64,000 nt of DNA from assembly GCF_023503965.1 (NCBI RefSeq), contig NZ_CP097298.1:1381001-1445000 (forward strand). The letters run 5' to 3'. The notes under the pieces are model-generated. The model saw nothing but the letters and a program-made list of their open reading frames with translations, was not told the origin of the DNA and did no database searches. Source of the DNA: Brevundimonas albigilva (lineage in GTDB: Bacteria > Pseudomonadota > Alphaproteobacteria > Caulobacterales > Caulobacteraceae). Numbering within the stretch: the first letter of the stretch is position 1; each line of letters starts with the position of its first letter. Both the position numbers and the translations under genes were made by a program. Below are positions 25,805-33,343 of the stretch, piece by piece.

Positions 25805-26441
25805 TTACGTCCGGCGCGCGTTTTGGATGAAGGCCGCGATCCGGCCGGCGTCCTTAACACCCGGCGCGCTTTCCACGCCAGAGGACACATCCACCATCGG
25901 CGCGCCGGTGATCCTGAGCGCCTCGCCGACATTGTCAGGATTCAGCCCCCGCCAGGAACCACGGATGGCGAAACACCCGGTCGCCCAGCAGGGTCCAGTC
26001 GAAGCGGTGTCCGACGCCGCCCGGCAGCACGGCCCCCTCGGGCGGCTTGGCGTCGAACATCAGGTGATCGGCGTGATAATCCCATTCGTCGGCGGCGGCG
26101 AAGTCGTCTCCACGCCGGATCGGCAAGGCCTTGATCATCCCCGCGCCCGTCACGGCGCGCGCCCGCTCGGCGCGGACGGGCGTTTCGGCCCCGTGCAGCT
26201 GGATGAAATCCGGCTTCAGCGTCCGCGCGATCTCGTCAAGCAGGGCGTCCTCGGCGTCGACCGTCACCGCCACGATCTTCGCCCGCCCGCGCGCCCGCTC
26301 GAACAGCCTGGCGGCCCTGTCCGGCACGATGTGGCGCGGGCTTTGCGGAAACACCACCGCCCCGACGAAATCCGCCCCCGCATCCAGGGCGGCGTCCAGC
26401 GTTTCCGGCGTCGTCAGGCCGCAGATCTTGATCGCCGTCAT
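25805..26441 (-). CDS. trpF: phosphoribosylanthranilate isomerase TrpF, one frameshift
   Basis: A ~210-residue TIM barrel catalysing the Amadori rearrangement in tryptophan synthesis. '[20 protein letters not shown]' has the catalytic cysteine; '[13 protein letters not shown]' and '[11 protein letters not shown]' follow. The catalytic Asp/phosphate part ('[10 protein letters not shown]', 'FLAG..LNPDNV', '[15 protein letters not shown]') crosses a frame break in the C5 run at 25946-25950 (plus view). The family motif FLAGGLNP suggests two bases lost there, or one gained. The restored end is TAA at 25805-25807. Confidence 0.9.
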
Positions 26442-26559: not shown

Positions 26560-27772
26560 CAGGGCCGATACAGGTCCGCGTCCGGATCGGTCTCGCCCCG
26601 CACCGCCCGTCCGACCACTTCGGAGGCGATCACCGAATAGGTGATGCCGTTGCCGCCGAACCCCATGACGGCGTGGACATGCTCCATGCCCTTCACCGGC
26701 CCGATCTGCGGCAGGCCGGTCTGGCTTTCGCCGAAGGCGCCCGCCCAGGCGTAATCGACTTCGAAGTCCACGTCGGGCAACAGCCGGCGCAGCTTGCGCG
26801 TGATCGTCTCGCACTTGCGTTTCAGCTTCGCCTTGTCCTGGTGCGCGGTCGCCGAGGGCTCGTCCTCGCCGCCGACGATCAGCCGCCCGTCGCGCCCATG
26901 CGAAAATAGAGGTACGGATCGGACGCCTCCCAGACCAGGGTGTCGCGCAGCCAGGCCGGGCATCGCATCCGGGGCCTGGACGCCATCGCCCAGGTCGAGA
27001 TCACCTTGGCGCCAGGCGTCGGCACGCCCTTGGGGAATTCGTAGCCGCAGCAGAAGACGACCGTCCTGGCCCGCACGGCGTGGCCCGCGTCGGTCAGCAG
27101 GGTGACGCCTTCGGGATCGCCGACCGCTTCCAGCACCTCGACCGGGGAATGGATCCTCGCGCCGTTTTCGCCTGCGCGCCGCAACAGCCCAGCCGCCAGC
27201 CGGGCCGGATCGCCGCTGGCGGATCCTTCCGAAAGGATGGCGCCGGTGCGCGCCATGTCGAAGCGGTCGCGCAACTCCGCCGGCGGGACGAAGCGGCTTT
27301 CCAGCCCGATCGCCGCCCGGGCTTCGGCCTCGGCCTCCAGCGCTCGTCGACCGTAGTCGTCGCCCGCCAGATAAAGCGTCCGCTTGGGCTTGAGTCCGCA
27401 GCGGATTCCTTCATCCGACACGATCCGCTCCAGCGCCTCGACCGCCGCCCGCGACCGGAGATAGGCCCGGCGCGCCTTCGCCGTGCCGATCCGTTCGGCA
27501 AGGGCGTTCAGCGGCAGGTCGATCTCCCACTGCAGCAGGGCGGTGGAGGCGATGGTGGAGCCCATCAGCGGCGGCCGCCGATCCAGCACGGCCACCGAAT
27601 GATCGCGGGCCAGTTCGTGGGCCATGAAGGCGCCGCTGATCCCCGCGCCGACGATGGCGACATCGACCGCGATCGCCTGGGTCAGCGGGCGCGTCCTGAC
27701 GCCCAGCCCCGGGCTGTCCGCCCAGAGCGAGCGCCCCGTTCGCAGATCCCTCTTGGTGGTGGCCCCGGCCAT
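26559..27772 (-). CDS. FAD-dependent oxidoreductase (DAO family), one frameshift
   Basis: A ~404-residue D-amino-acid-oxidase-fold flavoprotein. The N-terminal dinucleotide motif is 'VDVAIVGAGISGAFMAHELA' near residue 37, with the adenine-binding acid in 'VAVLDRRPPLMG'. The C-terminal part 'DGRLIVGGEDEPSA' and 'AFGESQTGLPQIGPV' is typical of amine and amino-acid oxidases. 'VMGFGGNGITYSVIASEVV' closes the FAD site. A missing G at 26895-26897 splits it. It lies in the minus-strand run between rsuA and the trp genes; the substrate is not predictable. Confidence 0.8.
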
Positions 27773-29498: not shown

Positions 29499-30299
29499 TC
29501 AGAATCCGGCCTGCAGCAGCGCCAGGCCCGCCACGCCGACCACGATCCGCCACCAGGCGAACGGGGCGAAGCCGCGTCGCGACACGAAGTCCAGCAGGAA
29601 GCGCACCACCGCCAGGGCCGAGACGAACGCCACCAGGAAGCCTACGACGATCAGGCCGATGTCGCTGAAATCCAGCACCGCCCGGTTCTTGAACAGGTCG
29701 TAGGCCACCGCCGCGCCCATGGTCGGCAGGGCCAGGAAGAAGCTGAACTCGGCCGCCGACCGCTTGTCGGTCTTCAGCAGCAGTCCGCCGGCGATGGTCG
29801 CGCCCGAGCGCGACACGCCGGGAATCATCGCCAGGCACTGGAACAGGCCGATCAGGAAATAGACCCGCATCGGATAGGCGCTGGCGTCCAGCCACCGGGG
29901 CCGCTTGTCCATCCGGTCCAGCGCCAAAAGGATCACCCCGCCGACGATCAGGGCGACGCAGATGACCTGGGGCGTCTCGAACAGCACCGTCTTGATGAAG
30001 TCATAGGCCAGAAAGCCGATCACCACCGCCGGGGCGAAGGCGACCAAAAGGCCGATCAGGAAGCGGCGGGCCTCGGGGTCGAACGGCCAGCGCGTCGCAA
30101 GCGTCCACAGCCGGCGGAAATAGACGCTGACGATGGCCAGCAGGGCGCCCAGCTGGATGACGATCTCGAAGGTCTTGCCGGCGCTCTCGAAGCCCATGAA
30201 ATGGCCCAGCAGAAGCATGTGGCCGGTGGAGGACACCGGAATGAACTCGGTCAGTCCCTCGACCAGACCCAGAATGATCGCCGCAAGCCAGTCCGACAT
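29499..30299 (-). CDS. uppP: undecaprenyl-diphosphate phosphatase UppP (BacA)
   Basis: A 266-residue multi-pass inner-membrane enzyme that recycles undecaprenyl pyrophosphate for cell-wall and polysaccharide export. The active-site signatures are '[20 protein letters not shown]' near the N-terminus and '[20 protein letters not shown]' later. About eight hydrophobic segments are visible. The ATG at 30299 is the conserved start '[15 protein letters not shown]'; the longer open frame upstream is a shadow. Confidence 0.95.
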
Positions 30300-30322: not shown

Positions 30323-31483
30323 TCAGTTCGCGCCCGGTTCGGGCCCCACATAGCGCATGCGCGCCCGGATAGGCGAGCCGTCGATGACCTGGTCCAGCGC
30401 ATGGGCGATCAGGCCGATCAGCCGACCCAGCATCAGAAGATCGCCCGCGCCCGTCGGTCCCAGCTCCAGGCGACGCGAGATCAGCGCCAGCGCCAGGCCG
30501 AAGTCCGCCTTGCGGCCGCTGGCCCTCTCGCCCTCGGTCCTTATCGCCGCCAGCTCGTCGCCCAGGTCCGCCGCCTTCAGCAGCGCCGCGGCGCGCGGAT
30601 CGTCGGGCGTGACGTTCCAGCCGCCGAAGCCGGGAGGCGAGCCCCTGAGCGCGATCCACCGCCGCGCCGCCTCTTCGGGATCGCGCCGCGCTTCCCCGAC
30701 ATAGGCCACGACATCGTCGAGCGCGCCCAGGACCGAGCCTTCCAGCGTCGTCAGGCCCGCCAGGACGGCCCCGGCCAACGGGGCGCCGCCGGCCGCCGCG
30801 GTCCGGGTCGCCAGCACGGCGTCGCTCAGCCCCGCCTCGGCGCCCAGGATCAGGGCGCGGCGGAGCAGATGGCTGTCGCGCTCGGGCGCCTTCAGGCCCC
30901 GCGCCAGGCGCTGGTGGAAATAGAGGCGCGGCCCCGGGCCGGAGACGCTGTCGACCACTTCGTTCAGCAGCGCGCCGGCCTCGCGCTTGAGGCTGGGGAC
31001 ATCGTGGGCGCGCATGGACCGATCCTCGGTCAGGCGCCGCCCCAGCACCGCCAGGATGCGCCGGCGCGTGGCCCCGCCGACGATCGGATCGATGCGCGGC
31101 TTGAGCCCGGCGAAACAGTCGTCCGGCCGCGCGTCCCACAGCCGGCGCGCCACATCCTCCACCGTCGCCTGTTCGGCCAGCTGGATGGCGTCCAGGCCGC
31201 GATAGAACAGGCGCCCGCCCGCGAACAGCGAGACCGAGGAGGTCAGGTCCGCCTCGCCCCGCGCCGCGGCGCCCTGCGCCGGTCGGGCCGTCGCGGCGTC
31301 TTGCGTGTCCGCGCCGCACAACCGCGCCACGTCGGCGGCCGCGTAGAGGCTTCGCCTGGGATGCGCGGGGTCCGGCCGGGCGGCGATGCGGCCCCGGCTG
31401 ACGTAGGCGTACAGCGTCTGCGCCTTGACGCCCAACCGTGTCAGGGCCTCGTGGCGGTCGATCCAGCGCCGATCCTCGTCCAT
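30323..31483 (-). CDS. citrate-synthase-fold pseudoenzyme with N-terminal helix-turn-helix domain
   Basis: A 386-residue protein. Residues ~7-50 ('[20 protein letters not shown]', '[15 protein letters not shown]') are the MerR/excisionase-like HTH found on a subset of citrate synthases. The rest follows citrate synthase, but the catalytic positions are lost. The usual 'HADHxLN' block is '[10 protein letters not shown]', 'GPxHGG' is '[10 protein letters not shown]', and 'PGFGHxxY' is '[14 protein letters not shown]'; only the Asp-containing 'ADFGLALAL' remains. It is therefore unlikely to make citrate. A regulator that binds DNA and perhaps senses a metabolite is an inference. It is the most upstream gene of the minus-strand run and lies 23 bp before uppP. 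Confidence 0.85.
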
Positions 31484-31603
31484 GGCGTTCGCCCCCGTGA
31501 TCGAATGACGGGAAACGACATAGCGGCGTTTTATGTCTTTAACCCTAACGCGCGCGCGGCGTCGGTTGGCTTTCGACGGCGATTGCGCGACAAGGTCGAG
31601 ACC

Positions 31604-32613
31604 ATGACGACGCCCGCCCCCTCGACGACGCCCATCTCGCCACGCGGCGGATCACCCGGCTGTCCGTCGCCGTCGCGGTGGTGCTGATCGCGCTCAAGGC
31701 CTTCGCCCTGGGCGCCTCCGGTTCGGTCTCCATCCTGGCCAGCCTGGCCGATTCCGCCCTGGACCTGGCGGCGTCCCTGGCGACATTCTTCGCCGTGCGA
31801 TGGGCCGCCGCCCCGCCGGATTCCGAACATCGCTACGGCCACGGCAAGGGCGAGGCCTTGGCCGCCCTGGTCCAGGCCGGGCTGGTGTTCGCCTCGGCCG
31901 TCTTCATCGGCTGGGAGGCGTTGCAGCGGGTGATGGACCCCCGTCCCGTCACCGCCGGCGCCTGGGCGACCGGCGTGGTCGTCGTCTCGATCCTGATCAC
32001 CGCGGGCCTGGTGGCGATGCAGACGCGCGCGCTCAGGAAGACCGGCTCCCTGGCCGTCGCGGGCGACCGGGCGCACTACGCCGCCGATCTGGCCGCCAAT
32101 GCGGTGGTGCTGGTGGGGGTGGTCTCGGGCGCCTTCCTGGGCGCGCCGGGGCTGGACGCCGCGGCCGGCCTGGTGGTCGCGGTCTGGCTGTTCTGGGGGG
32201 CGGTCGGAATGCTGCGCGCGGCGGCCGACCACCTGCTGGACCGGGCCACGCCCGCGGAGGACCTGGCCGCCATCACGCGCGCCGTGCTGGAGGACCCGCG
32301 CATCTCGGGGGTGCACCAGCTGCGCACCCGCATGGCGGGTCAGGTGATGATGATCCAGATGCACGTCGACCTGGATCCCGCCCTGACGCTGGAGGCCGCC
32401 CACGCCATCGTGGTCGAGGCCGAGACGCGGGTGCTCAGCCATTATCCGACAGCCGGCATCCTGATCCACGCCGATCCGCGCGGCGTGGGCCAGGCCCACG
32501 GCGGCGTCCATGCCGAGGCGCCGGCCGAACACCGGGACGTGGCGCCGCCCGAGCCCGACGTCCCCGTCGAAGCGGTCCAGGCGCCCGCCGCGCCGAAGGG
32601 GCCGTGGTCCTGA
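31604..32613 (+). CDS. cation diffusion facilitator (FieF/ZitB-like metal efflux), one frameshift
   Basis: A ~336-residue inner-membrane proton antiporter exporting Fe2+, Zn2+ or similar ions. 'ASLADSALDLAASLATFFAV' carries the DxxxD of the transport site in TM2, and 'HRYGHGKGEALAALVQAGL' is the family HGK motif. The C-terminal cytosolic metal-binding domain ('DPRISGVHQLRTRMAGQVMM') has His residues. ATG 31604 starts 'MTTPAP'; one C lost in the run at 31617-31621 throws the first ~25 codons out of frame. The tail after residue ~300 is Pro/Ala-rich. Confidence 0.85.
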
Positions 32614-32657: not shown

Positions 32658-33343
32658 ATGGCCCAGCCCTGCGTTCTCTATCATTTCGCCTTCCATCCCG
32701 CTTCGCGCGCCGCGCGCCTGGCGCTGGGAGAGGCGCGCATCGACTGGACCGACACCCCCGTCCGGCCCTGGGAGCCGGACTGTCCCCTGGGCGCGCTGAA
32801 TCCGTCGGGCATGCCGCCGGTGATCCAGACCGCGGACCGGGGGCGCGACCTGACGCTGTGCGAACTGCCGGCGATCCTGGGCTGGATCGAGGACCAGCAG
32901 AAATCCCCCTGCTGCTGTCCGCCGACGTCGCCGAACGGGCCGAGGCGCGCCGCCTGACGACCTGGTTCGAGAGCCGCTTCACCGACGAGGTCGACGCCGT
33001 CCTGCTGCACGAGCGGATGGAAAAGCCCCTGCTCAAGCTGGGCCCGCCGGAGGCCCGCGCCCTGCGCGCCGGGCGCGACGCCCTGAAAGGCCACCTGGCC
33101 CTGCTGGACGACATGGCCGGGGCGCGCGACTGGCTGGCCGGACGCCGGCTCAGCCAGGCCGATCTGATCGCGGCGGCCCACCTGTCCGTGCTGGACTATT
33201 TCGGCGAGGTGTCCTGGGGCGGCTGGCCCGCGCTGAGGACCTGGTACAGCAAGATCAAGTCGCGCCCCTGCTTCCGTCCCCTCCTGGCCGACCGCTTCAT
33301 CGGCGTCGCCCCCGCTGCGACCTACGCCGACCTCGACTTCTGA
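32658..33343 (+). CDS. fzlA: GST-family FtsZ-binding cell-division protein FzlA, one frameshift
   Basis: A ~228-residue glutathione-S-transferase-fold protein. It begins 'MAQPCVLYHFAFHPASRAAR', has 'LGALNPSGMPPVI' (the cis-Pro loop) and 'LCELPAILGWIED', and ends 'FRPLLADRFIGVAPAATYAD' plus LDF. From my knowledge of Caulobacter FzlA, the conserved C-terminal tail and an HPASR N-terminus mark this essential regulator, which curves FtsZ filaments and activates constriction. A missing C in the run at 32905-32909 splits it. A generic GST is the alternative. Confidence 0.75.

Follow-up and report, generated by a model that had tools for sequence, protein, structure and literature searches.

The analysed window, a stretch of 64,000 nt from Brevundimonas albigilva, carries on its minus strand a gene for a protein in which an N-terminal head of the HTH_17/MerR helix-turn-helix (HTH) type is fused to a domain of citrate synthase (CS) fold, with full-length homology to a family of proteins that we here call HTH-CS. 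The gene is flanked by uppP and by a divergently transcribed cation diffusion facilitator (CDF) gene (Table 1).

Table 1. Features of the HTH-CS locus in window coordinates ("clade" denotes the branch of 62 degenerate Caulobacteraceae sequences described in the text).
Feature	Position	Strand	Basis or remark
uppP	29499..30299	-	23 nt beyond the HTH-CS stop, on the same strand; found in all clade loci as fetched (62/62)
HTH + citrate-synthase-fold protein, 386 aa, CitC-type, catalytically degenerate	30323..31483	-	ATG start; Pfam and alignments
Citrate-synthase fold domain, aa 88-383	30335..31222	-	Pfam and profile-profile alignment
R373 = Arg421' (other subunit)	30365..30367	-	clade: R 47/62, K 7/62
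R354 = Arg401 of the oxaloacetate clamp	30422..30424	-	62/62 in clade
G329 in the catalytic Asp375 column	30497..30499	-	ungapped alignment
R297 = Arg329 of the oxaloacetate clamp	30593..30595	-	62/62 in clade
G288 in the catalytic His320 column (GFGH to GFGG)	30620..30622	-	both alignments
L252, beside the gap replacing catalytic His274 (LHGG)	30728..30730	-	both alignments
A217 in the His238 column (ADHE to AEAG)	30833..30835	-	both alignments
Stretch with several newly fixed positions, aa 184-198 (GPRLxxHQRLARxxK)	30890..30934	-	clade conservation
HTH_17/MerR-type DNA-binding head, N-terminal, aa 7-55, ending ...PRRSLY	31319..31465	-	Pfam, conservation, dN/dS
GACATAAAACGCCGCTATGTC, inverted repeat with 6-nt arms by eye (GACATA-N9-TATGTC), candidate promoter/operator element	31517..31537	-	
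CDF gene, divergent	31618..32613	+	59/62 clade loci; 5' end probably frame-shifted in the assembly

Homology of the larger domain to citrate synthases is clear from the Pfam model Citrate_synt (PF00285; 68.8 bits, E 5.6e-19, cut-off 27) and from an hhalign comparison with a partner CS of the kind described below (99.9%). The head of the query itself scores below the cut-off of the HTH_17 model (residues 12-53, 18.4 bits, cut-off 27 bits), and the same model matches 21 of the 22 clade members in alignment A2 at E<=0.01, bearing out the description in the earlier note of a CS-fold protein with a DNA-binding domain. The HTH_17 cut-off is passed by the degenerate clade member L071 (27.4 bits) and by L061, an orthologue that retains the active-site histidines (32.3 bits), while MerR_1 recognizes the head of the distant orthologue L129 (37.6 bits, cut-off 21.6). 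Fourteen NCBIfam models match the query, none of them at its cut-off. The protein is 74% identical to near relatives over residues 1-385 and 41% identical to the L061 protein (residues 3-376 of the latter), and an AlphaFold2 model built from four sequences reached a mean pLDDT of 38. The second PF00285 gene of the same genome encodes a full-length house-keeping CS (462.9 bits) in which all three His motifs are present.

For the active site, we take His238 (oxaloacetate-binding), His274, His320 and Asp375 (catalytic) and the clamp arginines R329, R401 and R421' in pig CS numbering as reference positions, and columns were assigned by MAFFT alignment with house-keeping and partner CS as well as by profile-profile alignment. 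At the first four positions, the query has Ala, a gap, Gly and Gly, and the basic residues of the CoA loop (GHRxYK) are replaced by Trp and Thr; all three arginines of the clamp are in place (R297, R354 and R373). The earlier note had thus correctly seen in the letters that all three conserved histidines are gone, as two alignments agree, and was mistaken in its view that the Asp region is kept: the catalytic Asp is lost as well, and the Asp of KADFGL aligns without gaps to an Asn two residues before the catalytic column. Throughout the clade, H238 is retained in 16/62 rows, H274 in 0/62, H320 in 5/62 and D375 in 5/62, with no fixed substitute residue at any of these four columns, and the third clamp arginine is replaced in 15/62 rows (7 times by Lys).

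Searches with the query found matches in 30 of 61 relatives and, among Caulobacteraceae, in at least 246 of 299 genomes at E<=0.001, some of the matches in both searches being ordinary CS genes. With L061 as query, the Alphaproteobacteria gave 45/289 at E<=1e-20, of which 31 begin within the first nine residues and hence include the HTH, and the Pseudomonadota gave 36/299 at E<=1e-35, all 36 aligned from the HTH onward. Our family set of 126 distinct full-length HTH-CS sequences (fragments excluded) stems from loci that were hand-chosen from these match lists and are not a random sample; 58 of them retain all three histidines and 68 do not, and retention is the rule outside the degenerate Caulobacteraceae clade. 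All three are absent from 44 of the 126, among them the query's nine closest neighbours in the tree, and their loss is therefore neither chance nor the product of one bad read.

Many HTH-CS genes stand head to head with a second CS gene, which we found in 45 distinct upstream regions and invariably on the opposite strand (45/45). Among the 43 partner sequences of sufficient length (the non-partners L001, L033, L034 and L104 excluded), all retain the three histidines and the basic residues of the CoA loop (R in 43/43 at the first position, R or K in 43/43 at the second). The Asp375 column holds Glu in 43/43 of them, a variant also seen in the aligned PDB citrate synthase 8gll. The partner of L061 passes the cut-off of 332 of the NCBIfam model NF009005 (442.9), and the adjoining HTH-CS does not (157.5). 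Even the HTH-CS proteins that retain their histidines mostly lack the CoA-loop basic residues, with R at the GHR position in 3/58 and P at the VYK position in 54/58.

This arrangement is probably the citB/citC pair of Caulobacter crescentus. CitC and CitB (CCNA_03758/CCNA_03757) are described in PMC7083601 as CS-type genes with neighbouring locus tags, of which CitB complements an E. coli gltA mutant and CitC does not. That the partner CS passes NF009005 and that HTH-CS proteins mostly lack the CoA-loop basic residues fits this result. The terms "helix-turn-helix" and "HTH" do not occur in the main text of that paper, and we infer from the paired loci, in which a complete CS lies beside an HTH-CS, that CitC is the HTH member and that the query most likely corresponds to it. 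The earlier note had pointed to an enzyme-independent regulatory role of a Caulobacter citrate synthase; this parallel is misplaced, as the protein studied there is CitA, the house-keeping CS with 65% identity to E. coli GltA (PMC7083601), and the query would correspond to one member of the CitB/CitC pair instead.

The B. albigilva genome has no CitB-type partner, and its protein differs from CitC/CitB also in having lost all catalytic residues. A partner CS is likewise present in 0/62 degenerate loci, and in the whole genomes tested a citB orthologue (61-100% identity) is found in 8/8 paired, 1/18 degenerate-group (G068) and 0/3 sister genomes, the citB copy of G150 being seen as a search match only. 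G068 harbours both forms, a citB/HTH-CS pair with operator-like site (L282) and, on another contig, a degenerate HTH-CS between CDF and uppP (L072); one TAG was flagged in the match to its paired HTH-CS in the whole-genome search. The query lies beside both CDF and uppP, one or both of which mark the position of HTH-CS genes in Caulobacteraceae whether or not citB is there. CDF also appears in 13 paired loci, mostly beyond the partner CS, and uppP in 3, counts that include many fetched stretches too short for either. Based on these shared neighbours and the distribution of citB, the locus looks like a citB/citC locus from which citB is gone. In Brevundimonas genomes without an HTH-CS match (L245-L262), CDF directly adjoins uppP in 18/18 cases with the gene missing in between, so HTH-CS is dispensable and can be lost cleanly.

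In a tree from which the catalytic columns were omitted, and for which branch support was assessed by the quick SH-aLRT method, the 62 degenerate Caulobacteraceae rows share one branch with SH-aLRT 100. This answers the proposal of the earlier note to look for a clade with these losses in common. It had further named close homologues with all three histidines as evidence to the contrary: the near relatives share the loss, and it is distant orthologues, several of them beside the same CDF gene, that keep all three. Within the clade, 44 rows retain none of the histidines, 13 retain His238 alone, 3 His238 and His320, 2 His320 alone and none His274. It is most likely that His274 was lost first, since it is retained in none of the 62 rows while other histidines survive, e.g., in L071 (HFH), L076 (HLH) and L020 (HVH). 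The sister group comprises 9 rows, of which 5 keep all three histidines; none of their loci contains a partner CS. On the tree, the His losses require at least 5 changes. Outside the main clade, His320 is changed to Gln in L069, L099, L100, L091 and L139 and to Asp in L101, which has also lost His238; these six sequences show that His loss happened more than once. Brevundimonas (genus g1) falls mostly into a single branch of 44 rows, composed of the basal row L020 and 43 crown rows including the query, with L076, L077, L080 and L082 outside.

Comparison of coding sequences showed that the HTH is under strong purifying selection and is the most constrained part of the degenerate proteins. Across 61 degenerate pairs (lacking one or more His, at least 3 of them HHQ rows of the sister group), the CS part had a median dN/dS of 0.147 (range 0.028-0.276) and the HTH one of 0.064, compared to 0.151 and 0.135 in 18 His-retaining pairs and 0.106 in 14 pairs of other CS proteins; all pairs are 80-98.5% identical and, sharing branches, are not independent. 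We further found 24 positions that are newly fixed, i.e., present in at least 95% of the clade with the same residue in at most 55% of the 58 His-retaining proteins, including R10, K20, R54, R149, E153, E175 and G184-P185-R186-L187...Q191...R195...K198. His-retaining Caulobacteraceae already show five of the 24 commonly (R32, P39, R150, D178 and R267); the other 19 also stay at or below 54% in 28 His-retaining rows of this family. Conversely, 17 positions fixed in His-retaining proteins are now free in the clade, many of them near the active site. Taken at the level of sequence, selection together with new constraint looks like re-use and not decay.

Upstream of HTH-CS, and often overlapping its start, paired loci share an operator-like site, GTCAATCTTGATCAATATAATCAATAT (24-bp form TCAATCTTGATCAATATAATCAAT; core TCAANNTTGAT-N7-ATCAAT). 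Its pattern TCAANNTTGA occurs in 43/45 paired upstream regions, with 0.08 expected from letter shuffles, and in 27/28 further loci that were not used in defining the site (re-fetched duplicates L219, L222 and L228 excluded), among them 5/6 from outside the class. The loci from other classes of the phylum (L263-L268) have an HTH-CS with no CS partner in the fetched stretch, and the presence of TCAANNTTGA in 5/6 of them suggests that autoregulation may be the common core function of HTH-CS. Along the tree, TCAANNTTGA is found in 52/55 rows that belong to neither the degenerate nor the sister group and, in its strict form, in 0/9 sister rows, some of which retain TTGATCAA variants. Of the 18 degenerate rows not in the 44-row branch, 17 have the site, including 11/11 rows of genus g24, which retain none of the three histidines. 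That the site has outlived the active site in g24 is the strongest sign that degenerate proteins may still act on DNA. Within the 44-row branch, it is present in basal L020 and in none of the 43 crown rows, the query included. The 64,000-nt window contains no match to this old operator at up to 3 mismatches, and the 4 matches to TCAANNTTGA with one mismatch are at chance level (4.2 expected). Elsewhere in the family, G247 (genus g32, the source of L061) has TCAANNTTGAT six times in 5.7 Mb, one of them upstream of its HTH-CS.

An expanded regulon was considered for G132 (g24), where TCAANNTTGAT occurs 77 times compared to 7 for a reversed-pattern control, and rejected as coding bias: in 22 fetched stretches covering part of the matches, 28/30 TCAANNTTGA sites lie inside ORFs of at least 90 aa, so no regulon is visible. 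A single TCAACATTGATCGATTAGGTTAA between genes (L206:1001), which precedes a small ORF in the close relative G008, is a possible second target site of the old operator type.

The promoter region of the query carries sequences of its own. GACATAAAACGCCGCTATGTC is single-copy in the genome and lies at the same place in the five near relatives tested, and the pattern GACANNNNNCGNCGCTATGTC, written from loci of this kind, is found without mismatch at the HTH-CS promoter in 6/6 genomes tested (the query and near relatives); elsewhere, there is one match with one mismatch (G290), while the reversed control pattern gave six matches in total at up to one mismatch. An automated inverted-repeat scan did not list GACATAAAACGCCGCTATGTC, and a promoter/terminator scan gave nothing usable. 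Across Brevundimonas, a box GTCAYSAAANSNNCNCAW is present in its strict form in 22/43 crown loci, and in 13 genomes its near edge lies 46-84 nt before the first codon in the alignment. It occurs at the HTH-CS promoter of 13/13 tested genomes that have the gene (13 of 15 matches lie there), partly by construction because the pattern was written from loci including most of these genomes, and at the corresponding place in 0/18 genomes that lack the gene, with one match elsewhere in G001. An element of the CDF promoter is out as an explanation, given its absence from this place in all 18 gene-less genomes despite the preserved CDF-uppP arrangement; the box goes with HTH-CS as a candidate operator or core promoter, but it may simply have been deleted along with the gene. 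A looser form of the box, GTCANNAAANCGNCNNNATG, has no match with up to one mismatch in the 64,000-nt window.

The explanation that we favour with moderate confidence is a transcription regulator with a dead CS as its effector domain, perhaps serving as a di- or tricarboxylate sensor. Its ancestor would have been a CitC-type HTH-CS encoded head to head with a CS gene of intact active site, with the operator-like site in the shared upstream region. In a Caulobacteraceae lineage without the partner, catalytic residues would then have been lost one by one while the DNA-binding head was kept. Dimers would presumably still form through the CS fold and bring a pair of HTH heads onto an inverted repeat; a di- or tricarboxylate resembling oxaloacetate or citrate would presumably still be bound by the arginine clamp and alter DNA binding. 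We infer DNA binding, dimerisation, the ligand and the direction of regulation from what the sequences themselves carry, i.e., domains, locus, order of loss, selection, the arginine columns and the co-conservation of the site. The idea of a repurposed metabolite-sensing transcription factor in the earlier note is the best reading as far as its regulatory half goes, given the clade-wide loss, the constraint on the HTH and the operator-like site in 17/18 rows; for metabolite sensing, the one sign is perhaps the conserved arginines, and R329 and R401 could be kept for reasons of fold. Against this explanation stand the absence of the operator in the crown, the lack of a visible regulon in the G132 stretches, the dispensability of the gene, the sub-cut-off score of the query's HTH, the replacement of the third arginine in 15/62 clade rows and the pLDDT of 38.

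The CS fold might instead be a dimerisation scaffold only, making the protein a non-sensing DNA-binding regulator or nucleoid-type protein. We regard this as unlikely: the four catalytic columns are indeed free, and even HTH-CS that retain their histidines lack the basic residues of the CoA loop, which the partner CS has, but the conservation of R329 and R401 in 62/62 rows and the clustering of new positions in GPRLxxHQRLARxxK seem to exceed what a scaffold needs. Retained clamp arginines, newly fixed Arg and Glu positions and purifying selection would suit a protein that has remained an enzyme and altered its chemistry on the CS fold (e.g., a lyase or isomerase acting via the arginine clamp). 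We give this little credence: none of the four catalytic columns has a fixed replacement, the CoA loop lacks its basic residues, and constraint is tighter on the HTH than on the CS part. Regulation by protein contact in the manner of CitA, with DNA binding lost in crown Brevundimonas, appears similarly improbable. It would account for the loss of the old operator in 43/43 crown loci and has a precedent in Caulobacter CitA, which acts without catalysis (PMC7083601), yet conservation within the clade remains highest in the DNA-binding segment and CitA is, as stated above, a different CS. A decaying pseudo-enzyme on its way out, as the absence of the gene from many Brevundimonas at an otherwise intact locus and a few matches that are shortened or flagged with an in-frame stop might suggest, is very improbable in view of dN/dS values of 0.03-0.28 across all 61 degenerate pairs, full-length frames and new invariant positions.

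A broader proposal can be made tentatively, with slightly less than even confidence: HTH-CS may form a so far undescribed family of transcription factors across the phylum, in which the CS fold reads an oxaloacetate- or citrate-like carboxylate and a single operator, TCAANNTTGAT-N7-ATCAAT, is the dedicated site of action, and the clade containing Brevundimonas may display a stepwise transition from enzyme to regulator, beginning with the absence of the partner and continuing via loss of His274 and then of the other His and Asp to replacement of the operator.

The CS fold and the HTH are each of an already known kind. With the enzymes of PF00285 (GltA/CitA and the NF009005-type partner), the query shares the fold family and the three clamp arginines, and it differs from them by the missing catalytic His and Asp, the missing CoA-loop basic residues and the added HTH. 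MocR/GabR regulators combine an aminotransferase with an HTH and ROK/NagC regulators a kinase fold with an HTH; the principle of joining a metabolic enzyme fold to an HTH as sensor or dimeriser is common to them and the query, and the fold differs. To our knowledge, no enzyme-fold regulator of the MocR or ROK sort is built on citrate synthase. The usual layout of MerR proteins is a coiled coil with a metal or drug pocket; heads of the query clade match MerR/HTH_17 domains, but the query has a CS fold in place of the coiled-coil dimeriser and effector. In the open-access literature, including PMC7083601, PMC9739823 and PMC11475020, we found no description of an HTH-citrate synthase as such or of a CS-derived transcription factor with an operator. 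The favoured explanation, if true, would mean that the first enzyme of the TCA cycle was made into a gene switch, with living intermediates for several steps in sequenced genomes and a candidate operator, and would help to explain why Caulobacter CitC resembles a CS and yet does not replace one. It would also link the state of central carbon metabolism directly to transcription in the Caulobacterales, where, according to PMC7083601, the regulation of the cell cycle by central energy metabolism is not well understood.

The query genome is 89% complete, and in the window the reading frame shifts along L003 homologues at 25948 (trpF), 26885-26906 (FAD oxidoreductase) and 32906-32921. The frame of the CDF gene around 31600-31618 has no start codon upstream of 31678, yet homology begins by 31618. 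All of these frame changes, that at the 5' end of CDF included, are probably indel errors of the assembly. The HTH-CS reading frame of the query is intact end to end.
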